Part shown: piece after piece, positions 3 to 63,190 of the stretch
Layout of the letters: every line of letters begins with the position of its first letter
How positions within the stretch are numbered: the stretch's first letter is position 1
Origin: Candidatus Heimdallarchaeota archaeon
Lineage (GTDB): Archaea > Asgardarchaeota > Heimdallarchaeia > Heimdallarchaeales > Heimdallarchaeaceae
NCBI GenBank assembly: GCA_018238545.1
Contig: JABCTC010000006.1
Coordinates: 1-64,000 of the forward strand
Reading direction: 5' to 3'
Length of the DNA stretch: 64,000 nt
Made by a program: the position numbers and the translations under genes
The notes under the pieces: generated by a model
Told to the model about the DNA's origin: nothing
Database searches by the model: none
Seen by the model: the letters and a program-made list of their open reading frames with translations, nothing else

Positions 3-1814
3 CAGCACCAACGAGAAGAGATTAACCAAAGGATAAGAAAACTAGAAGAACAGCAACTGCTCCTCCTTTCTCCGCAAATAGTAAAGAAAGCAGAAACGTT
101 ATACAGTTCCAATCCTAAGGAAGGGTTCTTCACCCGCCAACTATGCAAAGAAGTGGGGAAGAGTCCTAACATAGCAGAAAGTGCTTTCCATTGGTTGTAT
201 ATAGCAATCAAAGGGAAAAGAGATAAGGAACAGAAAGTGCAAGGGTTGCTCAATTTCCTTGCTAAGAACCCTCAACAATTAGTGGAGTGGATGATCTTTG
301 GCAGGTCACCTTATACTGAAAGCAGTTTAGGGAACTATTGGAAACTTAAAAGAAGGTACGTTATCAACCTCTTAACCAGCACTAGACAACAAGCAGATGG
401 ATATTGGAGAAAGAAAAAGAAAGCAACTTACCATCTTAATAACTTACACCATAATTCTTTCCTCACCTCTACAACACAACAAGCAATAGTACAAGCGATA
501 GATGACGCACTGTTCTTTTACACTAATGAATTCACTACTATTTCCCAAATAACCAAGAGGCAACAAGCCTTTCTAGCCAAACTCCAATTATTAAAGAACG
601 AACAAGCTGTCGTTGCCCCTTTTCTCACCTCATGGATCAACAGTCCCCAACCTTCTCGTTGGAAAAGTCTCAAAACACTAGCAGAACAACTAGCAAATAC
701 TCTTGGGAAACCTTCCCGAAAACTCTTCTCAGCTGTCAGGCTGATAGTTGTTTTCACACTCTTTGACCATTTCATGCAGAGTGCCCCTCAGTTACTTAAA
801 GGCCTCCCAGTAGCAAAAGTTGTTCCCTTACCATTTAAAAGAAAAAAGAAAGGAAGATTACCCATAAAATTGTTAATGAAAAAAGATTATGTTATCACCC
901 GACAAGGGAATGCAAAAACACTAACAGCACAAATCAATAAACAAGGATGGACAGAATTAGGTTTCCCTCAGAAAGGGAAGAAGAAACTTGTTGCAAAAAC
1001 ACTTTTCCCCTCCAAAGTACGAGAGTATATTCATAATGGTGCAGAGATCAAACTTTTCCAAGTTAGCAGCGGTCAAGCACCTAGTTACAAACCTCGAGTG
1101 GATGTCGTTCTCGAGGGAGCAATGGCCTGTTTCCACTCCTCTACCCTTCTCCACACCTATCTCCCGCTTATTTCCGGGAGGAAAAAATCTATTCTTGGTC
1201 TAGATATTAACCGCTTAGGGGCACATATGATGGCTTTTAACACCTCCGTTTCTCTCCCTCCTGAAACCTTGCTTCTAGCTGAACGTTATTCCCACCTTAC
1301 TTCTAAAGTTCTCCCCGAACTTCATCGGGGGTTGATGCGCAAACGTAAAGCTCGAGACACTCTTGGTTTCTGTAAGTTGCAAGGAGAGCTCAATAGAGTT
1401 TATACTCGTCGCATGAGACTCATTCGCGAGCTTACTCGCTGTTTACCACCCTTTCTTGCTGCAGTCATGGTGAAAAAACAGTGTAAGACCTTAAAGGTTG
1501 AACAGTTAACTGTTGACCCCTCAGGTACTAAGGGAGCATTAGCTAAAGCAATATACACTATGCCTGATAGTCTCTTCATCTACCAGAAAGCTGTCTGGTT
1601 AGCTTCTCAAGAGTTAGGTTATAAAGTACAGTTAGAGTCTGTTTCCCCCTACCATACTAGCACTATTCATTATGGTTGTGGAGGAATGTTAGTTCGACTT
1701 CAAGGGCAGTATGATCTTGCCCCTTGCAGAAAATGTGGACGAAAAGTTAATACTCACATTAATGCTGCGCACAACATTGCTTCTCTGTCTGGTACGCTCC
1801 TTCCTTCCTTCTGA
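3..1814 (+). CDS. tnpB: TnpB-like RuvC nuclease, 5' end outside the window
   Basis: TnpB proteins are RNA-guided RuvC nucleases of IS200/IS605-group transposons. The frame is open from base 3, so the start lies outside the window; a GTG at 153 is internal. The visible part is over 600 residues, longer than a usual TnpB (about 400), with a long N-terminal region. The C-terminal third has the expected order: RuvC-I 'LGLDIN' (Asp codon at 1203), RuvC-II 'KVEQL' (Glu codon at 1500), the 'SVSPYHTSTIHYGCGG' segment, a 'CRKCG' half of the zinc finger, and the RuvC-III region 'NTHINAAHNIA'. Two key positions deviate: the RuvC-III Asp (family pattern D-x-N-A-A-x-N-I) is His at 1755, and the first zinc-finger Cys looks replaced by His. 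It may be a weakened or inactive nuclease. The TnpB assignment is firm; the activity state is inference. Confidence 0.85.
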   Translation, partial: QHQREEINQRIRKLEEQQLLLLSPQIVKKAETLYSSNPKEGFFTRQLCKEVGKSPNIAESAFHWLYIAIKGKRDKEQKVQGLLNFLAKNPQQLVEWMIFGRSPYTESSLGNYWKLKRRYVINLLTSTRQQADGYWRKKKKATYHLNNLHHNSFLTSTTQQAIVQAIDDALFFYTNEFTTISQITKRQQAFLAKLQLLKNEQAVVAPFLTSWINSPQPSRWKSLKTLAEQLANTLGKPSRKLFSAVRLIVVFTLFDHFMQSAPQLLKGLPVAKVVPLPFKRKKKGRLPIKLLMKKDYVITRQGNAKTLTAQINKQGWTELGFPQKGKKKLVAKTLFPSKVREYIHNGAEIKLFQVSSGQAPSYKPRVDVVLEGAMACFHSSTLLHTYLPLISGRKKSILGLDINRLGAHMMAFNTSVSLPPETLLLAERYSHLTSKVLPELHRGLMRKRKARDTLGFCKLQGELNRVYTRRMRLIRELTRCLPPFLAAVMVKKQCKTLKVEQLTVDPSGTKGALAKAIYTMPDSLFIYQKAVWLASQELGYKVQLESVSPYHTSTIHYGCGGMLVRLQGQYDLAPCRKCGRKVNTHINAAHNIASLSGTLLPSF

Positions 1815-2556: not shown

Positions 2557-4140
2557 CTACACGGTTCTTGTTATTTGCTCTTGCTGCAATTGTAAATACT
2601 TTAGTAATGTATTTTCTAATCTAGAGAATCCGTAGAGCCTACATTTCTTTATAGCCATATATTGCAAAGCTGGACCTAGAGGATCTCCGTTCTTATATGC
2701 TCCTACTTGGATAAAAGCTTCCATAAATATGCGCATTTCTAGAACCTCAATTCTATGGAGCTTGTTCTCATATTGTTTGAGAAGAGGAGAGATTTCAGCA
2801 TACCGTTTAAGAGTAAACAACTGTTGAGCAATAAGGAGATTTGCATAAACATTTTCCATAAATGTAGTTTTCTTTGTTTTTACGCGCTTTTCTAAGATGG
2901 AAATACAGTTCAAAACCCTTTGTTCTTGACTAATCTCTCTCTCTAATTGTTGTTTTTCAAGCATAAACTCGATAAGATATTTTATTCGGTTAACGCTGAA
3001 ATTATCTATTTCTAATAACTGTTGAAGTTTGTCAGTATCGAGATTGGAATTGAGGATAAACTCACTAAGAGTCATGAAATCGCTAAACAAGTCTTTACAA
3101 TTTGCGAATATATCATCGATCAGTTTTTGATGTTCTTGAGAATTATAATTACTTAAACGTGAAATATTGTAAAATTTTACGAGATTATGGGTATGTAGAA
3201 TCTGCTTCTTGGTATTTATATCTATATTTTTCTGGATAAATTCAGTTTGAAGGAGCGTATCAGCAAGTTTGTCAATTTCAATCGCTTGTTTTGTTTTCCC
3301 TAGTAAACCTGTGACAGTAGCAAGATAAGAATGTAAAACGATAAAATAACCATAAAAATCACTTTTCAAATAAATTGGTTTAAGAATACTGTAAGCCTCC
3401 TGAAAATATGATTCAGAAATTCTCAAATTAGCATCTAACATGTATCCTAATCCCACAAAATAGTAAATCATACCCTTAACTTCTTGAGCTAGTCCATCGA
3501 ATAAAATCCTATCAGAAAAGATTCTTTTGCTTATATTCAGTGCTTTCTTACTGTCATGAGTTCTAGTGTATATAATACTTAGAAGACCAAATGTTTGGGC
3601 TAAACTTCTATGATAACCTTCCTCAAAGAAATAACTTGAACATTCTTCTAAAATTGTGGAACTTTCAATATCATGTTCACTTAACCATTTTTCTACTGCT
3701 AGAGAGTACATACAAACATGAAAAGCATATTTCTCGGGATTGGATATCTTCTCTATATAAGCGATAGATTTGCTAAGAGCTTTTTTACTCTTTTCTGTGT
3801 TCCCCTTTATTTTTTCTATATACCATTCAACATTATAAGATAAAGCTAAACCCTCTATATAGTTAATCTCGTTTGATAGATCTTTCATGGCACTTGCTAT
3901 TTCTGAGATTTCAGAAGCTCTACTAAATAGATGTTCTATCAATGATACCTTAATTTCATATACTTTCACTAAGGATTTTTTATCATCAAGTTGCTTACAT
4001 TTTTCAATGACCTTTTCAATAAATATCAAATTCTCATTGTTGGATTTCTCATTTTTAGCTACAACTCTAAATCTTTCAATAAATGTAGATAAAGATTCTT
4101 TTGACTCAAGTTTCTGAAAATCTTTGAATTTATGTTCCAT
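2557..4140 (-). CDS. TPR-like all-helical repeat protein 1, candidate peptide receptor
   Basis: A 527-residue protein with no signal peptide or membrane segment, predicted to be almost entirely helical. It has TPR-like helix pairs (for example 'SLAQTFGLLSIIYTRTHDSKK', spanning about residues 180-200). The N-terminal end shares 'ANEKS'-type wording with the paralogues at 6003, 17820 and 61601. The last 75 residues are nearly identical to two paralogues, including 'AYKNGDPLGPALQYMA'. There is no helix-turn-helix, so by layout it resembles bacterial Rap rather than Rgg/PlcR. It lies directly downstream, on the same strand, of two tiny peptide genes (4192-4320 and 4453-4524). Intracellular peptide sensing is inferred from this pairing; TPR scaffolding of other partners is the alternative. 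Confidence 0.8.
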   Translation of the reverse strand: MEHKFKDFQKLESKESLSTFIERFRVVAKNEKSNNENLIFIEKVIEKCKQLDDKKSLVKVYEIKVSLIEHLFSRASEISEIASAMKDLSNEINYIEGLALSYNVEWYIEKIKGNTEKSKKALSKSIAYIEKISNPEKYAFHVCMYSLAVEKWLSEHDIESSTILEECSSYFFEEGYHRSLAQTFGLLSIIYTRTHDSKKALNISKRIFSDRILFDGLAQEVKGMIYYFVGLGYMLDANLRISESYFQEAYSILKPIYLKSDFYGYFIVLHSYLATVTGLLGKTKQAIEIDKLADTLLQTEFIQKNIDINTKKQILHTHNLVKFYNISRLSNYNSQEHQKLIDDIFANCKDLFSDFMTLSEFILNSNLDTDKLQQLLEIDNFSVNRIKYLIEFMLEKQQLEREISQEQRVLNCISILEKRVKTKKTTFMENVYANLLIAQQLFTLKRYAEISPLLKQYENKLHRIEVLEMRIFMEAFIQVGAYKNGDPLGPALQYMAIKKCRLYGFSRLENTLLKYLQLQQEQITRTV

Positions 4141-4191
4141 AAATTAGTCCACCAAACAAAGTAAACTGTACTCTTCGAGATATAAGTCATT

Positions 4192-4320
4192 TCAAAAAAA
4201 TTGCATTAAGATTGCATTTTTTAGTATGCGTAATAATAAAAAAACCCTTATGGGTCTCCATAAGGGCGGCATTATACTTTCATCTCCGTCTTCCGGATCA
4301 TATTTTTGTTTCATTTGCAT
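4192..4320 (-). CDS. Short peptide gene 1 (YDPEDGDES family) with altered C-terminus
   Basis: A 42-codon frame starting ATG-CAA-ATG. It shares the core 'KYDPEDGDESIMPPLW' with the other peptides in this window, but instead of the usual 'FPN' stop it reads on as 'RPIRVFLLL' and about a dozen more residues. The extension coincides with a terminator-like hairpin (4236-4266), so the original 3' end has probably been replaced. It is 51 bp upstream of the TPR gene 2557-4140 on the same strand and has the conserved upstream block (4321-4381). It may encode a variant peptide or a decaying copy. Too short for normal gene finders; support comes from the family comparison. Confidence 0.6.
   Translation of the reverse strand: MQMKQKYDPEDGDESIMPPLWRPIRVFLLLRILKNAILMQFF
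4236..4266 (-). terminator. Intrinsic terminator-like hairpin with T-run
   Basis: On the minus strand CCCTTATGG pairs with CCATAAGGG (plus coordinates 4258-4266 and 4245-4253; 9 bp, 4-nt loop), followed directly by a run of seven T. It lies within the 3' part of peptide gene 1, between that gene's core and the TPR gene, so it could end a short peptide transcript or attenuate read-through into the receptor gene. Confidence 0.6.
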
Positions 4321-4381
4321 CACTCTATTAGTTATACTTAGAAGTGCTATAACATACTAAAAGACAACAAGAAAGAAACTG
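4321..4381 (-). promoter_or_regulatory. Conserved upstream block of peptide gene 1
   Basis: Read on the minus strand it contains 'CAGTTTCTTTCTTGTTG' then 'CTTTTAGTAT' (4354-4381) and 'CTTCTAAGTATAA' (about 4332-4344), followed by 'ATAGAGTG' before the ATG. The same words recur in the same order and spacing upstream of the peptide genes at 4453, 7664 and 61369. The TTTTAGTAT part could be the TATA element; the outer T/G-rich word may be a regulator site. Confidence 0.65.
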
Positions 4382-4452
4382 ACAATATAGGTGCTTTACT
4401 AGTAAACACATACAACAAAACAAGAATTTGAAAAGAAAAATTAGAAATGAGA

Positions 4453-4524
4453 TTAATTAGGAAACCACAGTGGGGGAAGGATTGATTCGTCTCCATCTTC
4501 TGGATCATATTTGTTTTTCATCAT
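4453..4524 (-). CDS. Short peptide gene 2 (YDPEDGDES...LPPLWFPN)
   Basis: A 23-residue peptide starting with two ATG codons. It has a short basic start, the acidic core 'KYDPEDGDES' and the hydrophobic C-terminus 'ILPPLWFPN' ending at TAA. Closely similar peptides occur at 7664 (minus), 19536 (minus) and 61369 (plus); conservation at the protein level with many synonymous changes argues for real genes. There is no signal peptide or membrane helix. The layout (charged leader, 7-9 residue Pro/Trp C-terminus) resembles bacterial ComS/XIP and SHP pheromone precursors. It precedes peptide gene 1 and the TPR gene 2557-4140 on the same strand. Confidence 0.75.
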   Translation of the reverse strand: MMKNKYDPEDGDESILPPLWFPN

Positions 4525-4527
4525 TGT

Positions 4528-4592
4528 GCATCACTCATTACGTTATACTTAGAAGAGACAAAAGATACTAAAAGGCAACAAGAAAGAAACTG
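4528..4592 (-). promoter_or_regulatory. Conserved upstream block of peptide gene 2
   Basis: On the minus strand 'CAGTTTCTTTCTTGTTG' and 'CTTTTAGTAT' (4565-4592), then 'CTTCTAAGTATAA', then 'GAGTGATG'. It is nearly the same as the blocks at 4321-4381 and 7739-7799. The distance from CTTGTTG to the start codon (about 44-52 bp across copies) fits an archaeal promoter with a short leader. Confidence 0.65.
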
Positions 4593-4666
4593 ACGATAAA
4601 ATCGTTTTACTAGTAAACATATCAACGGAAAAAGCATAAAAGTCTGCACATCCTAATTCAATTGTC

Positions 4667-5785
4667 ATGACTATTCAAGAATTATCAAAACGAGATGTCT
4701 ATAATCTAGTTATAGGTGCAAAGATTTTAGCCTGTGGTGGAGGGGGAAGTGAAGCTAAGGCTCTCGAGAATATCAATAAAATATATGACATAGGTCTAAA
4801 TTTTACGATTGCTGACTTAACAGATTTTCAACCAGATGATAGTCTTTGTATCATTGGAATGGTTGGAGGAGGAATTACTGAAGAAGAAAAAAGAATAGTT
4901 GAAGAAAAAGAAATAGTAGAAAAGAAACCTATGATTAGAGCTGTTAAAGAACTTGAATTGTTCCTAGGGGAAGAATTCAGCGCTTTTGTAGCCACTGAAC
5001 TTGGACCTTACAACAGTATTATTCCTTTGATGGTAGCTGCTCAAATGGGTAAAGTTGCCATCAATGGAGATTGTTGTGGAAGGAGTAAGCCAAAAATATC
5101 TATTAGTACAACAAGGGTCAAAGATTTTTCAATTGCACCTTTCTCAATCGTTAGCCAATATGGTGATATTCAGATTGTGAAAAATGTAGCAGATGATATT
5201 AGAGGTGAACTCATTGCTAGAACCTCTTCACGTTTGTCGGGAGGATCAGTGAGCGTTGCTCGATGTCCTATGAAGGTTAAAGAAGCTCAGAAAGCAGTTA
5301 TTCCTCAAACTCTGTCTTTAGCAATAGAATTAGGTAAACAGGTAAGGACAGCTAATGAACAAAAAAAACAACCGATGAAAACAATTCTCGATACACTCCC
5401 TGAAACTAGAATAGTTTTTACTGGGAAGGTAAGAGATTTTTCAAGAACCGAAGAAGGAGGTTTTACCTCAGGGGAAATTATACTAGATTCTCTGAATGTA
5501 AAGAACCATGAATTAAAGTTTTGGTACCAGAATGAATATCTTCTCTCTTGGTTAAATAACGAACCATTCGTTACCTGTCCAGATGGGATTTACATGGTTG
5601 ATTCTAAAACAGGGTACGGTTTAACTCCGTGGGAGAATGATTTCAAACGAAATAGAGAAGTTACAGTCTTTACAAGAGAAGCTCCAGAGATTTGGAGATC
5701 AGAAAAAGGGTTACAGGTATTCGGGCCTAGAGCTTTCAATAAGAATTGGCCAATGTATAAAAGAGCAAGTTCATTCAAACTATAA
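4667..5785 (+). CDS. DUF917 family protein (hydantoinase/oxoprolinase-like)
   Basis: A 372-residue protein matching the DUF917 family by the N-terminal glycine-rich motif 'GAKILACGGGGSEAKAL' (about residues 17-33), the 'ATELGPYNSIIPLMVAA' segment (about residues 108-124; family pattern E-x-G-x-N-x-x-x-P) and 'INGDCCGRSKP' (about residues 130-140; family pattern D-x-D-x-x-G-R-x-x-P). DUF917 proteins are often found with hydantoinase or oxoprolinase-type genes; the reaction of this one is unknown. It is cytoplasmic, with no signal peptide. It stands alone between two TPR/peptide cassettes and is transcribed opposite to both, so a functional link to them is not evident. ATG start at 4667; its promoter must overlap the region upstream of peptide gene 2. 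Confidence 0.8.
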   Translation: MTIQELSKRDVYNLVIGAKILACGGGGSEAKALENINKIYDIGLNFTIADLTDFQPDDSLCIIGMVGGGITEEEKRIVEEKEIVEKKPMIRAVKELELFLGEEFSAFVATELGPYNSIIPLMVAAQMGKVAINGDCCGRSKPKISISTTRVKDFSIAPFSIVSQYGDIQIVKNVADDIRGELIARTSSRLSGGSVSVARCPMKVKEAQKAVIPQTLSLAIELGKQVRTANEQKKQPMKTILDTLPETRIVFTGKVRDFSRTEEGGFTSGEIILDSLNVKNHELKFWYQNEYLLSWLNNEPFVTCPDGIYMVDSKTGYGLTPWENDFKRNREVTVFTREAPEIWRSEKGLQVFGPRAFNKNWPMYKRASSFKL

Positions 5786-5831
5786 TTTACTAAAGAATTT
5801 TCAAGAAGTAGAAGAAGAAAAAGAAATGAAA

Positions 5832-5900
5832 CTAGTATGGAGATCACAATGGGAGAAGGATCGATTCGTCTCCATCTTTGGGGTTATATTTAGTCTTCAT
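5832..5900 (-). pseudogene. Decayed short peptide gene 3
   Basis: The frame reads 'KYNPKDGDESILLPL' and then TGA where the family has TGG (Trp). After the stop the frame continues S-P-Y then TAG, matching the family's F-P-N-stop with point changes (F to S, N to Y). The upstream block is only partly recognisable (a 'TTTCTTTCTT' word). It lies about 100 bp downstream of the 3' end of TPR gene 2 on the same strand. A relic of a full cassette is the simplest reading; an 18-residue product cannot be excluded. Confidence 0.6.
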
Positions 5901-5954
5901 CGTCTATCATTAATTTAAAAAGAAAGAAACACAAAAAACCAGAAGAAATTTAGA

Positions 5955-5991
5955 GACAAAAAGAAAAACCTCCAAAGAACATAAGAACCCC
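5955..5991 (-). repeat. 3' flank element shared by TPR cassettes
   Basis: About 37 bp just after the stop of TPR gene 2. It is similar to 10158-10194 (both include 'CCTCCAAAGAA', then 'AAGAACCCC' here and 'AGGAACCCC' there), more weakly to about 2512-2530, and in the opposite orientation to about 63203-63236 downstream of the fourth TPR gene. It may be a transcript end signal (T-rich in the sense of the TPR gene) or the edge of the duplicated unit. Confidence 0.5.
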
Positions 5992-6002
5992 TCTCTTGAG
6001 TT

Positions 6003-7583
6003 CTATATTGTTCTTGTTATCTCCTTATGCTGCAATTGCAAATAATCCAATAATCTGTTTTCCAATCGAGAGAAACCATAGAGCCTACATTTCTTTATTG
6101 CCATGTATTGTAAAGCTGGACCAAGAGGATCTCCGTTCTTATATGCTCCTACTTGAATAAAAGCCTCCATGAAAATACGCATTTCCAGAACATCAATCTT
6201 GTGAAGTCGTTTCTGATATTTCTTTAATAGAGGTGAAATCTCTGCGTATCTTTTTGAAGAAAATAGTTGATTAGCTATGAGTAAATCAACATAAACATGT
6301 TCAATATAAGTGTTCATTCCTGTTTTTATTCGGTTTTTCAAAATAGCTATACAGTTCTGAATCTTCTGCTCTTTACTAATCTTTGACAAAGATTTCTGTT
6401 TTTCAAGTTTAAATCTAATAATATGCTTAATTCGATTTATACTGTAGTTATTGATTAATAACATTTGTCTTAGATTCTTACTGTTAATGTCTGCAACAAG
6501 CATGAATTCACTTAACATTACAAAATCGCTATAATACAATTTACAATCTTTTAGAATAATAGAAATTAGTTTTTGATCTTCAATTTTTTCATATACAGCA
6601 GTCCTAGAATAGACATAAAATTTCGTTAAATTAAATGTGTGTTTAATCTGATTTTCATTAAATTTAGTAAGATTGCTCCTCAAAACATCCATTTCTAATA
6701 ATTTTTCAATTTGTGCTATTTCTTTTTGGGAAGTATCTAAATTTCCTTGTAAAGCTGTAATTACTAAAAGATGGGAAAGAGTTGGAATATAGTATGTTGA
6801 TTTAATCATCTTATTCTGTTCAAATATTTGTTTTACTTTTAGGAAAAATGTTTTAGCTTTAGAAAGGGAACATTGCAACTTAAAAGAAACCCCCAAAAAG
6901 TAATAGGCTATAACCTGCAAGTCTTTTGGAAGTATCTCTAGATCTAACTTCATGGAAAGAATCTTCTGTGCTATCTTAATCGCTTTATTTCTTTTCTGCA
7001 TATGCAGATATATGATACTCAGATATCCCAATGAATGAAACAGACCTTTATAGTTTCCCACATTAATAAAATATGAAACACATTCCTCAAATATTTCACA
7101 GCTCTTGAAATCATAATCCTCTAACCAGATTTCTATTGCGTAGCTATATCTAGTTACATTATAGGTATATATGTCTAGATTGTTCGATGATTTTAGTAAT
7201 TCCATGGCTTTTAGTATTGCTTTCTTGCTCTTTGTTTGGTTTCCTATAAATTTCTCAAAGCCCCATTCAATTGAATAACAAAGAATTAGCCCCTCAGTAT
7301 AATTCATTTTTGTTGCTAAATTCTTCATATCTTGAAGTGTCTTACTAATTGAGGAAACAGTGTTTCGATTTCCAAACAATTGCTTTATCCTTAATTCATA
7401 TAACTTGATTGTAGCAATTGAATGGTTTAATCTACAGCTCTTTTCAATTGCTTTTTCTATTATACTGATAACTCCGTCTGATTTCTCATTTGCTGATAAA
7501 ACACGAAGTTTATCAATTATCTCCTCTAAATCCTTCAACGTTTGAATTTTATCTATGTGAAAATGTTGATTACTATAACTCAA
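6003..7583 (-). CDS. TPR-like all-helical repeat protein 2, candidate peptide receptor
   Basis: A 526-residue helical protein, full-length paralogue of the one at 2557-4140. The N-terminal 430 residues are clearly related but well diverged. The last 75 residues are almost identical ('MRIFMEAFIQVGAYKNG', then 'DPLGPALQYMA'). No helix-turn-helix, signal peptide or membrane segment is visible. TPR-like pairs recur through the middle, for example 'GLFHSLGYLSIIYLHM' (near residue 180) and 'IAYYFLGVSFKLQCSL' (near 230). Peptide gene 4 (7664-7738) lies 80 bp upstream on the same strand and decayed peptide gene 3 lies downstream. The contrast between a variable front and a constant end suggests a variable ligand-sensing part and a shared output surface; this is inference. 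Confidence 0.8.
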   Translation of the reverse strand: MSYSNQHFHIDKIQTLKDLEEIIDKLRVLSANEKSDGVISIIEKAIEKSCRLNHSIATIKLYELRIKQLFGNRNTVSSISKTLQDMKNLATKMNYTEGLILCYSIEWGFEKFIGNQTKSKKAILKAMELLKSSNNLDIYTYNVTRYSYAIEIWLEDYDFKSCEIFEECVSYFINVGNYKGLFHSLGYLSIIYLHMQKRNKAIKIAQKILSMKLDLEILPKDLQVIAYYFLGVSFKLQCSLSKAKTFFLKVKQIFEQNKMIKSTYYIPTLSHLLVITALQGNLDTSQKEIAQIEKLLEMDVLRSNLTKFNENQIKHTFNLTKFYVYSRTAVYEKIEDQKLISIILKDCKLYYSDFVMLSEFMLVADINSKNLRQMLLINNYSINRIKHIIRFKLEKQKSLSKISKEQKIQNCIAILKNRIKTGMNTYIEHVYVDLLIANQLFSSKRYAEISPLLKKYQKRLHKIDVLEMRIFMEAFIQVGAYKNGDPLGPALQYMAIKKCRLYGFSRLENRLLDYLQLQHKEITRTI

Positions 7584-7663
7584 TCAAACCCACTAAATAT
7601 ATTATGAAAACTTTGATTTATATACTTGGTAGATATTTCAGCTCCAAAAAGAAGGTAAAAAGG

Positions 7664-7738
7664 CTAGTTTGGAAACCAGCCAGGAGGAAGAATGTCTTCA
7701 TCTCCGTCTTTAGGATCATATGTTTGTTTCATTTGCAT
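7664..7738 (-). CDS. Short peptide gene 4 (YDPKDGDED...LPPGWFPN)
   Basis: A 24-residue peptide starting ATG-CAA-ATG. It has the core 'TYDPKDGDED' and the C-terminus 'ILPPGWFPN' ending at TAG. It differs from peptide 2 at few positions: the Leu before Trp is Gly, and there are charge changes in the core. It is 80 bp upstream of TPR gene 2 (6003-7583) on the same strand and is preceded by the conserved block 7739-7799. The small difference in the C-terminal octapeptide beside a different receptor paralogue is what specificity pairs would look like. Function inferred. Confidence 0.75.
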   Translation of the reverse strand: MQMKQTYDPKDGDEDILPPGWFPN

Positions 7739-7799
7739 CACTCTATCAATTATACTTAGAAGAGGCAAAATATACTAAAAGACAACAAGAAAGAAACTG
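7739..7799 (-). promoter_or_regulatory. Conserved upstream block of peptide gene 4
   Basis: On the minus strand 'CAGTTTCTTTCTTGTTG' and 'CTTTTAGTAT' (7772-7799), 'CTTCTAAGTATAA' and 'ATAGAGTG', 44 bp from CTTGTTG to the ATG. Same order as at 4321-4381, 4528-4592 and 61300-61361. Confidence 0.65.
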
Positions 7800-7888
7800 C
7801 CAATTCCTCACCTTGTCTAGTAATATTATCAACAAAACCCATTTAATTTTTAAATATCGTAAATAAGGTACAATTACTTGTTCAAAAG

Positions 7889-10305: not shown

Positions 10306-11817
<1,512 letters not shown>

Positions 11818-12615: not shown

Positions 12616-12681
12616 ATGACTAACCACATATATGACCCTGAAGAAGAAGACAAAAGCTGCTACCTGTCTTGTGCGTTTTAG
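12616..12681 (+). CDS. Orphan short peptide gene 7 (YDPEEED core)
   Basis: A 21-residue frame between the two rRNA genes. It has the family core 'HIYDPEEED' but a different C-terminus, 'KSCYLSCAF', with two Cys in place of Pro/Trp. A diverged copy of the peptide-gene upstream block precedes it at the usual distance. No TPR gene is adjacent; the nearest is at 17820, beyond the 23S rRNA. It could be a divergent signal with a distant receptor, or a decayed copy. A frame on the same strand at 12632-12835 overlaps it but shows no protein-like features. Confidence 0.4.
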   Translation: MTNHIYDPEEEDKSCYLSCAF

Positions 12682-14029: not shown

Positions 14030-17000
14030 TTCCTAAATTAACCTACACTATGCATACGCCATGTAGTGGATGACTCGGCTAGGGTGCCGATGAAGGGCGC
14101 GGTAAGCAGCGAAATGCTGCGGGGAGACGCAGACTGTCTACGATCCGCAGATTCCCGAATCGGATTTCCGGTCATAGCTTAATAAGTTGTGACAGCCAGT
14201 AATGGCGGGGTACCCAGGGAACCAAAACATTCAAGTACCTGGAGGAAAAGAAAACAATCGTGATTCCGGTAGTAACGGCGAGTAAACCCGGAACAGGCCA
14301 AACCGAATTCCCTTTTGGAAACATTAGGGTAGATGTGGTGTTTTTGACTACGTAAAAGATCGTCAGAGTTAAGTCGAATATCCCTGGAAAGGGAAGCTAT
14401 AGAGGGTAATAGCCCCGTAGACGTAAGCTCCCGACTTAGTAGTATCAAGACTAGCGTGGCTTGGATTTGTCGCGCAAATATGGGAGGACTAACTCCCAAG
14501 CCTAAATACACCCCTAGACCGATAGCGCACTAGTAACGTGAGTAAAAGTTGAAAAGTATTCGAAGTACGAGAGTGAAAAGTACCTGAAACTACATGGTAA
14601 CAGACGTGGATGGCCCGAAAGGGTAGAGTCTCGGTGAAGGAACCCATCGTGAGGTGGTAGTACGAGCTGAGAGGACCAGGGTCATCCGTTCCGTCTCGAA
14701 ACACGGGCCGAGGAGTTCAGGTTTGTGGCGAGCCTAAGTTTTATACGGTGGCGTAGCGAAAGCAACCTGCGCGCAGCTTCGGCAAGGCGCGACGTCCGAT
14801 AAGGGCGTGAAGTCACAAGTCTGAGACCCGAAAGCAGTTGATCTATCCCTGACCAAGGTGAAGCGCTTCGAAAGGAGCGTGGAGGCCTGAAGGGTTATTG
14901 ATATGCAATTCATTCCTCTGAGTTGGGGATAGTGGCAAAAGACCAATCTAAACTGCTGATAGCTGGTTCCCCCCGAAGTATCACCACAGGATAGCGTCGC
15001 TGGAGGTGGCATGTGAGGTAGAGCTACGGACGGAAGGTTCTGGAGAGTGAAATCTTCACCCTTCCTTCCAACTCCGAACTTGCATGCGCCGTAGAAGGCG
15101 ACAGACGGGCGCGTGTCCGCAAGGGATGCGGCCGAAAGGGGAACAACCCTACATCAGGTTAAGGGCCCTAAATCCCGGTTAAATGTTAAACAGAATGGCG
15201 TCCAATAACAAAGACAATGAGGCGGTAAGCTTAGAAGCAGCTATCCGTTAAAAAAAGCGTAACAGCTTACTCATCGAGTTGTTGGGCCCAGAAAATGGAC
15301 GGGGCTAAACCGGGTCCCGATACCTGATTGAACTTCAAAAGAGTTTTAGGTAGGGGGGCGACCGGGTTGGGTAGAAGCTGGGGAGTGATTCCCAGTGGAC
15401 CGATCTGGTTTGCAGATCTCGGTGGTAGTAGGAGCATAGTGAGGTGAGAATCCTCACCGCCGGAAGCCCAAGGGTTCCTTGGCACTGTTCGTCAGCCAAG
15501 GGTTAGTCGGTCCTAAGGTCGATCTTAAAACGAGTCGATCGAAAGGGGAACAGGTTCATATTCCTGTACCACGCTTATAGACGCGGCGACGCAAGCTTTG
15601 AGCTAACGCTGGTGGGTAGGTGACCTAGGAGAATATCCTAGTTAAATTTCGAAATCTGGGGAGAACCGTTAAGGTGAGAACCAGAAGAATAGATGAAGAG
15701 GCTGGCCATTGGTTGCTGGCTGTCATCAACCCCAACAGCTCATAAAAAGGCAAAGAGAACGATTAAGCGTGTCCGTACCCAGAACCGAAACAGGTGTGGC
15801 TAGCTTAGAAGGCTAAGGCGTGTTAGGAGAGCTTAGGTGAAGGAAATCGGCAAATTAGTCCCGTACCTTGGGTATAAGGGATGCCTGGCGAGGTGTATGC
15901 CTCACCAGGTCGCAGTGACTTGGGGCACCCGACTGTTTAATAAAAACATAGCAAACTGCAAGGGCGAAAGCCTGAGTACAGTTTGTGAATCCTGGCCGGT
16001 GCTGGTGATTGAAACCTGGGTTCAACCAGGCTAAGACCCAGTAAACGCCGGAGCTAACTATGAGCTTCTTAAGGTAGGCAAATGCCTTGTCTGCTAATTA
16101 CAGACGTCCATGAAGGGACCAACGAGGTGCCCACTGTCTCCACCTAAAGCCTACTGAACCCACAGTCCAGCGAACAGTCTGGAACGCACCATCGGGAAGA
16201 GAAGACCCTGTGGAGCTTTACTGCTGTCAGGGGCTGTTGTATTGGTGTGCATACATAGCATAGTCAGGAAACGTTATATCCTACATTCTCCGGGATGTAG
16301 GGGAGTTGATCTTGAAATACTGACTTTGTGCATTGGTACGACTTACCTCTCGCGAGGGGGACACCCCCTGCCTGGCAGTTTCACTGGGGCGGTAGCCTCT
16401 TGAAAAGATATCAAGAGGGCCCAAAGCCAAGCTCAACCGGGACAGAAATCCGGTGTAGAGTGCAAGGGCAAAAGCTTGGTTGACTGTGAACTCACCAACA
16501 CGGTTCGCAGATGTTAACGCAGGGCCTAGCGATCCTTCGCAATGCCCTTAGTAGGCGGCGGAGGTGGCAGAAAAGTTACCCCAGGGGTAACTGCGCTTCT
16601 TTATAATACTTACGTGTAAAGTTGTGCTCTCATCTGGGTAACATTTATCTGTTGCAAAAATTTTTTCAATTGGCAGAGCTAAAATAAATTATTAGAAAAT
16701 TGCTCCTGTCTTCAATTTCCGGTGAGGAAATTATATAGGTTTTCGCCAAATTGGCATAATAAAATCTTGAACAGAATGGGTCCATTATCTGTCTGATATC
16801 CCAACAAATTGATAAGGAATTCCCTAAAAAGATTAACAACACAACAGATGAAGAGCTACAACAAAAGCGTGAGTACTCGATAGGTGACAAGATTGGTAAC
16901 TGCCCTTCACGGGGTTAACAATTGATCTTCGAACCAATGTGCTATGTATTTTGCATAAGCGCAGCCCTGAACAGAGTTGTCGTGGGTAAGAGTTCACATC

Positions 17001-17458
17001 GACCTCACGGCTTGCTACCTCGATGTCGGCTCTTCCTAGCTTGGTCCTGATTCAGGGGCCAAGAGTGGGGTTGTTCGCCCATTAAAAGGGAACGTGAGCT
17101 GGGTTTAGACCGTTGTGAGACAGGTTGGATTCTATCTGATGGTGCTGGCGGGCGATTGAGAGTAAAGCTTCCACAGTACGAGAGGAACAGGCAGCTGGGG
17201 CCGCTGGTGTATCGGTTGTTCTACCGAGCATGCCGAGTAGCTAAGCCCTTGTAGATAAGAGCGGAATGCATCTACGCTCGAAGCTACCCTCGAAACGAGT
17301 CGCCCACTCTGCAACACTATAAAGGGACTGGTGACAGTAACTTTCGTTGTAGACGAGAACGCGGAAAGAAGATCCGTTTGATAGAGAAGGGATGTACGCG
17401 TCGAGCTTAGGCGAGATGTTTAGTCCACTTCCACTAATTGTTCAAGCGTAGTTAGGCC
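14030..17458 (+). rRNA. rrl: 23S ribosomal RNA, interrupted by an intervening sequence
   Basis: Full 23S gene, recognised by its 5' domain ('GTAGTGGATGACTCGGCTAG'), the 'ACGAGAGGAACAGGCAG' sarcin-ricin region near 17176, the 'GTTCGCCCATTAAA' segment near 17072, and others. Without the intervening sequence (16589-16969) the length is about 3.05 kb, normal for archaea. The ends are approximate and are set from helix 1 and the outer processing stem (13993-14017 with 17481-17505). It has its own promoter and is transcribed divergently from the 16S gene. No 5S gene or tRNA follows. Confidence 0.95.
16589..16969 (+). other. Intervening sequence (intron) in 23S rRNA at the peptidyl-transferase loop
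   Basis: The conserved sequence '...CCCCAGGGGT|AACAGAGTTGTCG...' is split after the T at 16588 (E. coli U2449) and resumes at 16970. The insert is 381 nt, AT-rich, without a credible reading frame. It ends in G and the upstream exon ends in U, as in group I introns. A 7-nt segment at 16702-16708 can pair with the last 7 exon bases (16582-16588), including the required U-G pair. Alternatively, the ends can form a helix (CTGCGCTT 16591-16598 with AAGCGCAG near 16957-16964) next to CAGGG/CCCTG, as in an archaeal bulge-helix-bulge intron. I could not find a clear group I P7 core by eye. The AAC repeat makes the junction uncertain by 3 nt. Confidence 0.7.
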
Positions 17459-19535: not shown

Positions 19536-19619
19536 TTAAGGGATTATCGGAAACCAGCAAGGAGGTAAACTCTCATCATCGGTTGGTTCTGGATCATATG
19601 TGTTATTTGTGTTTTTCAT
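19536..19619 (-). CDS. Short peptide gene 5 (YDPEPTDDES...LPPCWFP)
   Basis: A 27-residue peptide with core 'TYDPEPTDDES' and C-terminus 'LPPCWFPIIP' ending at TAA. It is the most divergent intact member: Cys before Trp, and 'IIP' in place of the terminal Asn. It is convergent with TPR gene 3, the most divergent receptor paralogue. Upstream it keeps only the proximal 'GAGTGATGCAAAATG' word and lacks the 'CAGTTTCTTTCTTGTTG' block, so it is regulated differently from peptides 1, 2, 4 and 6. Co-divergence of peptide, receptor and promoter is the best single argument for pairwise function. Confidence 0.7.
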   Translation of the reverse strand: MKNTNNTYDPEPTDDESLPPCWFPIIP

Positions 19620-61368: not shown

Positions 61369-61440
61369 ATGATGAAACAAACATATGACCCTGAACCTGG
61401 CGATGACGACATAGGACCACCGTTGTGGTTTCCTAATTAA
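61369..61440 (+). CDS. Short peptide gene 6 (YDPEPGDDD...PPLWFPN)
   Basis: A 23-residue peptide from a double ATG, core 'QTYDPEPGDDD' and C-terminus 'IGPPLWFPN' ending at TAA. It has the same last seven residues as peptide 2 and the conserved upstream block. It lies 160 bp upstream of TPR gene 4 (61601-63190, broken by one amber codon) on the same strand, giving the same order peptide-then-receptor as for peptides 1, 2 and 4. Function inferred from the family. Confidence 0.75.
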   Translation: MMKQTYDPEPGDDDIGPPLWFPN

Positions 61441-61600: not shown

Positions 61601-63190
61601 TTGGTGAGAGTTGTGTTGGATTCTAATCTGTGGAACAAGATTAAATTAGTTAAAACAAAGGAAGATTTAAGACGTTTTATTGATGCCTTGAGAATTATTG
61701 CAGCTAATGAAAAATCAGAAGGAGTAAGAGATCTCATTAATGAAACGATTAAAAAATCTCTAGAAATTGAGGATGGTATTTCTCGTATTCATCTGTACGA
61801 ATTAGAAATAAAGCAGATTTTTCATCAAACTACAGAATTGCCTAAGGCCGAGAAAAAACTAATAAAAATGAAAAAACAGTCAATTGAGCAGAATTACAAG
61901 GATGGTTTAATTCTTAGCCTTTCAATTGAGTGGGGAATTGAAAAACTAAAGGGAAACAAAGAGAATAGTAGAAGAGCCATTACTCAATGCATGACTCTGT
62001 TAGGAAATAATAATGCTACCGACGAATATGTTTATCATATTTGCAGATACATTTATGCAACTGAACAGTGGATAGACGAGCACAACTACCAATGTTCAAA
62101 CATCCTTGAGGGGCTTATTCCTTATTTTCATCGAAAAGGTTTCCACAGAAGCATTGCACAAATTCTAGGAATGTTGTTAATTATATATCAACACACTCAA
62201 AATGAAGCAAAAGCAAGTTATATAAGCGAACAGTTATTTAGCAAAAAATACCAAATTAGTCAGCAATCTGATGATTTCCAAGTAATGTCTTATTATTTAG
62301 CTGGTGTAGGGCAATTATTGGGTCACAATTTGAAACAAGCAGAGAATCTGTTCAATGAATCTTATGTCTTGTTAAATAAACAACTACAGCAGAGCAGTTA
62401 CTATGCCTATTATTATATTAGATTATTATCCCATATTGCGATTGTTCAAGCTCTGCAAGGTAAAATTGCTCTTTCATATGAAAATATTGGAAAAGTTGAA
62501 AAACTGCTTGAAGATGATTTCTTTTCAAAAAATATGGACCCATATAGTAAGAAACAAGTTCCACACACTTTGAATTTAATCAAATTCTATGTAAAATCAC
62601 GTCTATATGGCTTCAAAACTGAGAATATTCAATAGCTTATAGGACAGATATGTAGAGGGATTGAAGGTAATTATAGTGATTCGATCCTTCTCAGTGAATT
62701 TATTCTGAATGCAGCATTAAATGAAAAACTGCTAGAAAAACTAATTGAATCAAATAACGCAAGTTTACTGCGAATTAAACACATCATAGAATATATGTTA
62801 CTAAAATCACAGAACAATGATGAAGATACTGTTGGTTCTTATAGAAACGCTCTAAATAGAAAATTGAAAACTAAACGGATTACTTTTATTGAACAAGTAT
62901 TTTCTAAGCTTCTACTTGCTCAAGAACTTTTCAGTAAGCAACAATATTCAGAAATCGCTCCTCTATTGAAGAAATACGAGCACAGACTACGGCGAATTGA
63001 AGTCCTGGAAATGCGGATTTTTATGGAAGCTTTTATCCAAGTAGGTGCATATAAGAACGGAGATCCGCTTGGTCCAGCTTTACAGTATATGGCAATAAAG
63101 AAATGTAGAGATTATGGGTTTTCTAGATTGGAAAACAAACTGCTAGATTACTTACAACTACAGCGAAAGGAGATAACAAGAACTAAATAG
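61601..63190 (+). pseudogene. TPR-like repeat protein 4, interrupted by one in-frame TAG
   Basis: Paralogue of the TPR proteins at 2557 and 6003. The frame starts at TTG 61601 (GTG 61604 also possible) and stops at TAG 62633-62635 after 344 residues. The same frame continues 'LIGQICRGIEGNYSDSILL' and, from 62795, the conserved end including 'AYKNGDPLGPALQYMA' up to 63190. Where the paralogue has '...EHQKLIDDIF' this has '...ENIQ(stop)LIGQIC', so one Lys codon (AAG) has become TAG. No other lesion is visible, so the mutation is recent, or it is a sequencing error or a read-through codon. Peptide gene 6 is upstream. Confidence 0.75.

Follow-up and report, generated by a model that had tools for sequence, protein, structure and literature searches.

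The 64,000-nucleotide stretch analysed here (hereafter the window) forms the beginning of contig JABCTC010000006.1 of a Candidatus Heimdallarchaeota archaeon, and carries several members of a family of tiny genes whose products, peptides of 18-27 aa with the motif YDP...GD...PPxWxP, are encoded beside proteins of the tetratricopeptide repeat (TPR) type. These cassettes are probably cognate ligand-receptor pairs, in which each peptide would switch its own TPR protein. The family is far larger than the window suggests: the peptides are protein-coding and under purifying selection with hypervariable positions, their genes adjoin TPR genes, and their variable residues covary with columns of the predicted inner helices of the neighbouring TPR protein, a pattern that points to direct binding. 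A sequence-only reading of the window had proposed such cognate cassettes, and the near-total adjacency, the purifying selection and the covariation now give this proposal substance.

The peptide profile matches 20 of the 227 genomes of the phylum, all within one Heimdallarchaeota family, and 20 of 56 relatives. For this profile (A1), 79 of 125 motif-found peptides were hand-picked for diversity, some of them with the N-terminus trimmed to a later methionine; forms with tyrosine in place of tryptophan entered only via the profile. The window's own 3.63-Mb genome holds 13 matches at E<=10 (best 9e-14), all 13 in TPR neighbourhoods, and, since the motif moreover recurs in 20 genomes, chance is excluded as an explanation. 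The TPR protein encoded at 2557-4140 is matched nine times within its own genome and, among the 56 relatives, in 21, itself included. Among the best 120 of 163 matches of a wider TPR protein search (7997 best candidates scored), the named ones are called 'hypothetical' or 'TPR repeat' and the organisms are mostly Heimdallarchaeota, with three labelled Thorarchaeota; the 42 TPR-protein loci in named genomes belong to metagenome-assembled genomes titled Candidatus Heimdallarchaeota or Asgard group archaeon. No peptide was found in G005 (which has a group-3 TPR gene only, see below), in G012 (a member of the genus without any TPR gene), nor in G022 and G024, where the only TPR match is distant, and none of 112 pattern-matched stretches of viral contigs encodes such a peptide.

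The TPR proteins split into three subfamilies. Group 1 numbers 74 members, counting single genes and joined gene pieces that code for 300 aa or more. Every one of them is preceded on its own strand by one, two or three matches of the peptide profile, two or three in 28 of the 74, and in the 64 clean pairs the median distance to the TPR open frame is 82 nt. Three further loci (G013:C299, G014:C23 and G001:C8:42893), each with an upstream peptide, are not counted among the 74, and partial TPR matches outside them, such as G002:C110:34132, G016:C210, G009:C121 and G018:C87, were not fetched. Group 2 (>150 bits) has one locus in each of 16 genomes, with a peptide at 15: at 14 it is convergent and lies 29-69 nt downstream, and the fifteenth, at a contig edge, shows an upstream peptide only. 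Peptide and TPR protein are the sole constant components of the loci. Other recurring neighbours (Orc1/Cdc6, PEPCK, an ABC ATPase with an FtsX-like permease, an M42 aminopeptidase and S-Me-THD), clustered by BLAST and assigned by Pfam on one or two examples each, are apparently parts of orthologous loci. The M42 aminopeptidase was considered as a processing enzyme and not included, because only one of its five own-genome matches adjoins a cassette.

Of 160 local profile matches, 141 show a complete core and entered the selection counts. Because this core pattern itself demands Y/F/H-D/N, PP, W/Y and P, the near-fixed columns (ratios 0.03 and 0.10) are partly imposed, and the coding claim rests on the free positions, where the ratio of nonsynonymous to synonymous differences (pN/pS) is 0.32 over 814 close pairs, or 0.21 without three variable sites and 0.58 at those three. 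The hypervariable sites are the residue before PP (prePP), x1 of PPx and x2 of WxP, with ratios of 0.79-0.99 over all pairs. Proline codons of the complete cores vary freely in their third bases while the residues stay constant. The 19 matches failing the pattern are mostly cut short or altered ahead of W-x-P, as expected of decaying copies, and a few carry one substitution. Tyrosine replaces the tryptophan in five of the 141 cores. Natural variants of this anchor residue (PPMYFP, PPLYFP and PPMYYP) occur at L053 11287-11361 and 11629-11706, L067, L095 and L152. Of 147 genes, 60 have a Shine-Dalgarno-like motif ahead of their first ATG (78 if any candidate ATG is accepted), against 93 of 3000 background ATGs. 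The 136 genes for complete-core peptides of 18-27 aa specify very acidic, hydrophilic products (median charge -4.5; grand average of hydropathy, GRAVY, median -1.13 and maximum -0.41), and in 111 of 148 genes an in-frame stop lies at most three codons before the first ATG, so that no signal peptide fits.

How are peptide and receptor matched? Pair tests were carried out, after removal of overall divergence, on 64 of the 74 group-1 genes, namely those unbroken and preceded by a complete-core peptide. The C-terminal tail and x2 covary with TPR residues ~20-140, x1 with ~160-260 and prePP with ~240-360; for the acidic N-terminal positions the stretch is ~240-440, and the order is antiparallel along the superhelix. 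Synonymous sites of the same peptide codons reach at most 0.17 in this stretch-level test. The top columns for x1, x2, tail, prePP and the next sites fall in helices 4, 6, 8, 10, 12, 14 and 16: columns 62, 66, 104 and 107 belong to x2 and tail, 178 and 182 to x1, 265 to prePP, 272 and 227 to the residue two positions further, and 317 to the next. For the N-terminal sites n1 and n2, which are partly confounded with differences in peptide length, the top columns lie partly in loops (425, 156). We take the even helices to be the inner (A) helices from the TPR consensus visible in them (e.g., YYFVGLGYML in helix 12). Between residues 14 and 326, z>=4 is reached by 13 of 139 A-helix columns, one of 111 B-helix columns and two loop columns. 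The 13 pairs of group 2 offer an only suggestive replicate of the order: x2 is best at residues 34-94 (0.35), x1 at 216-275 (0.18) and prePP at 0.21-0.22 in several places, and the tail, present in just two of the 13, points elsewhere (0.51 at 306-365).

For the TPR proteins, AlphaFold2 predicts a TPR-like all-helical fold, with most TPR blocks of the 2557-4140 protein at a mean predicted local distance difference test score (pLDDT) near or above 90. The window's receptors measure 526, 527 and 561 aa, and the unbroken group-1 frames found elsewhere are mostly 504-597 aa long. In the fold search, complexes of Rap with peptide and of NprR with NprX are among the matches, level with LGN; an RRNPP-like fold (RRNPP being the peptide-receptor family of Rap and NprR) is unproven by this search, as the fold may also be that of a family outside its listing. 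At E<=1, neither Rap nor any further RRNPP chain came up in a profile search of the PDB, and Pfam and NCBIfam list no helix-turn-helix (HTH) in the TPR proteins at E<=0.1. The C-terminal part is much more uniform than the remainder: mean majority frequency is 0.81-0.87 over residues 455-504, as against 0.33-0.64 before residue 430.

In the mechanism that we propose, each leaderless 18-27-residue peptide would be the private ligand of its own TPR protein, lying antiparallel in the inner groove. Its C-terminus (tail and x2 of WxP) would sit at TPR residues ~20-140, x1 at ~160-260, and prePP with the acidic N-terminal part at ~240-440, the invariant tryptophan coming to lie near the invariant Y145/A148/W152 face of helix 8. 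Peptide binding would then switch the contact of the TPR protein with a partner common to all cassettes, for which the conserved C-terminal block (residues ~464-516) may serve as output surface, while the variable part would act as address and the several cassettes of a genome as insulated channels. The sequence-only reading had envisaged a cleaved C-terminal pheromone of 7-9 residues. This now looks unlikely, since conservation and, more weakly, covariation extend upstream of PPxWxP, and the ligand probably comprises most of the ~20 residues of the peptide.

Could the peptide instead be an intracellular, constitutive co-factor, that is, a small subunit that stabilises or gates the TPR protein in the same cell and conveys nothing from one cell to another? 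The sequence-only reading had likewise named, as its alternative, an inhibitor or scaffold peptide confined to the cell. Such an internal role, which overlaps with a ligand-receptor switch, is quite possible if short of probable. It agrees with the lack of space for a Sec leader in most genes, the acidic and hydrophilic composition, the tight linkage in group 1, and the apparent recognition of most of the peptide. Nevertheless, a pure subunit needs no hypervariable paired addresses, unless paralogues must be insulated from one another (which may be so), nor does it call for two or three peptide genes before one receptor, or for peptides whose fetched stretch holds no TPR gene. A toxin-immunity or toxin-antitoxin arrangement, with a peptide toxin neutralised by the TPR protein and coevolving with it through specificity, is improbable. 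Pairwise specificity and tandem diversification, both seen here, are typical of such pairs too, but the peptides are hydrophilic, not membrane-active in composition; intact-looking copies, at L156 and L157 for example, lie on fetched stretches that hold no TPR gene; and the window's own peptide at 61369 is intact beside a TPR gene broken by a TAG.

It is about as improbable that peptide and TPR protein never touch and that linkage, gene conversion and common descent account for their apparent covariation. The genes are neighbours as well as paralogues and often form tandem arrays in which the C-terminus hardly varies, and nested conversion tracts could conceivably yield the antiparallel pattern by position alone. 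A simple Mantel test gave r 0.40, where 2000 shuffles within genomes never exceeded 0.225, but this correlation was discarded as evidence because it is also expected from co-inheritance, and reliance was therefore placed on controls comparing A with B helices, synonymous sites and held-out pairs. Synonymous sites of the same codons carry no such signal, though they are possibly saturated. Among characters simulated on the tree, an A-B gap as large as that observed appeared in 0 of 200 runs; the raw information was reached by none of the 200 simulations for n1, d1 and x2 and by one each for prePP, x1 and tail, and the z-score stands above the simulation null for x1 (0 of 200), x2 (2) and d1 (2). 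In joint switches along the tree, the best of 448 columns is 107 for tail (11 shared branches, p 1.4e-7), 265 for prePP (6 shared branches, p 2.4e-6) and 227 for d1. In the held-out test, every TPR protein at least 50% identical was removed and the decoys were the scored peptides of the same genome, 60 of the 64 pairs having a distinct decoy. With the A-helix columns, the adjacent peptide then comes out on top in 46 of 60 cases (chance 16.0; area under the curve, AUC, 0.89). The count is 22 for B-helix columns, 19 for columns beyond residue 400 and 18 for synonymous sites (chance 16.6 for the latter), and a nearest-kin predictor reaches an AUC of 0.71. With the limit at 45%, AUCs are 0.79 for A helices, 0.46 for B helices and 0.42 for kin; at 60%, they are 0.91, 0.73 and 0.67. 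Where several peptides precede one receptor, 24-25 of 26 comparisons go in favour of the scored peptide. Both the covariation and the outcome of the controls are as expected from direct recognition in the groove but not from linkage alone, and linkage or ancestry alone does not explain the prediction of peptides from A-helix columns. Finally, a leader-peptide attenuator, by which an upstream ORF would stall ribosomes and control the TPR gene in cis, is very improbable: known arrest peptides do contain PP and W motifs and the group-1 genes lie upstream on the same strand, but the group-2 peptide cannot be a leader because it is convergent and downstream at 14 of 16 loci, some copies have no TPR gene nearby, and a leader does not predict covariation with the receptor's predicted inner helices.

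Several results weigh against the cognate ligand-receptor reading. Group-3 TPR genes have a peptide at none of eight loci (L040, L041, L086 and L088-L092), and, conversely, intact-looking PPxWxP peptides at L153, L155, L156 and L157 have no TPR gene on the fetched stretch; these may be orphan ligands or remnants. No exporter, peptidase or effector gene recurs in the cassette neighbourhoods beyond orthologous loci, and two of the window's cassettes are partly decayed (the peptide at 4192 has lost its stop, the TPR gene at 61601 contains a TAG). AlphaFold2, applied to natural read-through peptide-TPR fusions, gave no confident peptide placement, both peptides lying almost wholly in segments with pLDDT <50 in one model and only residues 18-21 (LWWP) lying outside such segments in the other. 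In the fold search, Rap is equalled by LGN-peptide complexes (scores up to 19.2), and Foldseek's own top match is TSK/BRU1. The covariation itself comes from 64 pairs with an effective number of 39, site pm2 is out of order, and the A/B contrast was first noticed in the data used to test it, so that it needs an independent set. Tree simulations too favour A-helix columns (mean 4.2 versus 1.5), as do synonymous sites weakly (7 versus 2 at z>=3). Raw information was reached by 5, 10 and 20 of 200 simulations for pm2, n2 and d2, respectively; z-scores lie well inside the null for n1 (169 of 200), n2 (75), d2 (36) and tail (47), and at its edge for prePP (10) and pm2 (9). In the joint switches, x2 has column 27 first and 31 and 66 next, with 27 and 31 above or level with 66, and x1 has 178 first at p 1.1e-3, not significant over 448 columns. 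Lastly, the 2557 receptor ranks its scored peptide 4453 only fourth of nine. This farther peptide was used as partner because the nearer one, 4192, has lost its stop; the receptor picks a WRP-type peptide instead, the type of 4192, and has E62 and S66, the residues usually paired with a WRP end (8 of 9 and 7 of 9, respectively).

The peptide and TPR genes of the window are collected in Table 1.

Table 1. Peptide and TPR genes of the window, with one peptide from outside it
Feature	Position	Strand	Remarks
Peptide gene MMKNKYDPEDGDESILPPLWFPN	4453-4524	(-)	310 nt upstream of the 2557-4140 TPR open frame; profile E 9e-14
Peptide gene MQMKQKYDPEDGDESIMPPLWRP, ending ...IMPPLWRP	4192-4320	(-)	nearest upstream of 2557-4140; usual stop lost, runs to 42 aa
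Group-1 TPR protein, 527 aa	2557-4140	(-)	TPR_12 E 0.0045, below the Pfam cut-off; AlphaFold2
TPR gene part coding residues 62-317	3190-3957	(-)	holds most top covarying columns (62, 66, 104, 107, 178, 182, 265, 272, 317)
C-terminal block of residues 464-516, hyperconserved and proposed as output surface common to the cassettes	2593-2751	(-)	mean majority frequency 0.81-0.87 in residues 455-504
Peptide gene MQMKQTYDPKDGDEDILPPGWFPN	7664-7738	(-)	ranked first of 9 for its TPR protein
Group-1 TPR protein, 526 aa, TTG start as listed	6003-7583	(-)	cognate of 7664
Decayed peptide copy	5844-5900	(-)	stop replaces the conserved W; profile E 1.2e-4; ~100 nt past the end of 6003-7583
Peptide gene MMKQTYDPEPGDDDIGPPLWFPN	61369-61440	(+)	upstream of 61601-63190, same strand; intact
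Group-1 TPR gene broken by in-frame TAG	61601-63190	(+)	ORFs 61601-62635 and 62795-63190
Group-2 TPR protein, 561 aa	17820-19505	(+)	comes after the large-subunit rRNA gene
Convergent peptide gene MKNTNNTYDPEPTDDESLPPCWFPIIP	19536-19619	(-)	tail to tail with the group-2 TPR gene, 31 nt past its end
MTNHIYDPEEEDKSCYLSCAF	12616-12681	(+)	earlier candidate, unsupported as member of the peptide family
Peptide MKQTYDPEDGDESILPPLWWP			goes with the TPR protein of locus L096, outside the window

All the peptide ORFs named in the sequence-only reading exist, the decayed copy included, and five of the six listed as intact or partly intact do lie beside TPR proteins of about 525-560 aa. The sixth, 12616, is not counted in the family, as it has no PPxWxP end and no TPR neighbour and is absent from the 13 whole-genome matches at E<=10; an ORF resembling it near another group-2 locus scores only E 0.11. 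The order peptide then receptor on one strand, already remarked upon from the letters, holds for 4453, 4192, 7664 and 61369, the first two sharing one TPR gene. A shared stretch (like TTTCTTGTTGTCTTTTAGTAT) lies ~40-65 nt before peptide ATGs, for example at 4325-4390 and 7745-7800, and resembles a promoter or operator that several peptide genes would share. Beside the cassettes, a 553-aa protein encoded at 153-1814 (+) has a TnpB/Cas12f-like TNB domain slightly below the Pfam cut-off and is perhaps part of an IS605-type element. The 16S (10306-11816, minus strand) and 23S (14042-17457, plus strand) rRNA genes are divergent, ~2.2 kb apart and in no single operon; the group-2 locus comes after the 23S gene. 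In five group-3 loci the TPR gene adjoins a gene from one BLAST cluster of neighbours, of which the single member examined codes for a metallo-beta-lactamase/beta-CASP protein.

Heimdall archaea are relatives of the lineage discussed for the origin of eukaryotes. Among the matches listed in the PMC full-text subset, which leaves preprints outside, no archaeal gene-encoded cognate peptide-receptor cassette or peptide-TPR system was found. The 141 complete-core peptides and 64 clean pairs reveal an ordered, testable peptide-TPR recognition code, by which archaeal peptide signalling, whether between or within cells, and programmable TPR-peptide recognition become directly testable questions. True communication between cells by leaderless peptides that are exported and re-enter is somewhat unlikely. 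Equally tentative is the idea of a multi-channel peptide language of the Heimdallarchaeaceae, with nearly one residue per helical repeat as its code, orthogonal channels of self-recognition and one common output. If true, it would mean a gene-encoded archaeal peptide communication that evolved independently of RRNPP, with a receptor code readable and rewritable from sequence.

In comparison with known systems, the cassettes appear to work like Rap-Phr and other RRNPP pairs; they are not filed as RRNPP members because Sec secretion and receptor length differ and homology is unproven. An RRNPP propeptide is a small protein of 10-100 aa (PMC10075063), a size range shared by the peptides here. It is Sec-secreted and matured, with exceptions such as SHP (PMC10075063), whereas the early stops and low hydropathy described above speak against such a route in most of our genes. 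RRNPP receptors measure ~250-500 aa (PMC10075063), slightly less than the window's. The peptide is recognised on the concave side of the TPR receptor (PMC10075063), in a concave pocket (PMC9765709), and a similar placement is suggested here by A-helix covariation, not by a structure. Adjacency of peptide and receptor genes (PMC10075063) is common to both. RRNPP systems are further defined by receptor homology to a known subfamily and by extracellular accumulation, import and a density-dependent response; the N-terminal HTH is optional (PMC12700828) and absent in Rap, and RRNPP clans and leaderless peptides have been described (PMC12700828). Such systems have been described from Gram-positive Firmicutes and from mobile elements of these bacteria, and the word archaea is absent from the main text of that account (PMC10075063). 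Compared with Rap-Phr of Bacillus and its phages, the present cassettes have an archaeal host, mostly no Sec leader and a PPxWxP core, most of the ~20-residue peptide seems to be recognised, and the peptide gene is sometimes convergent. NprR-NprX, PlcR-PapR, Rgg-SHP and AimR-AimP may have an N-terminal HTH; none was recognised in the TPR proteins studied here. The TPR domain of LGN/Pins with Inscuteable, NuMA or Frmpd4 peptides matches the fold as well as Rap does, but LGN/Pins is a eukaryotic scaffold whose ligands are segments of large proteins and not the products of adjacent tiny genes.

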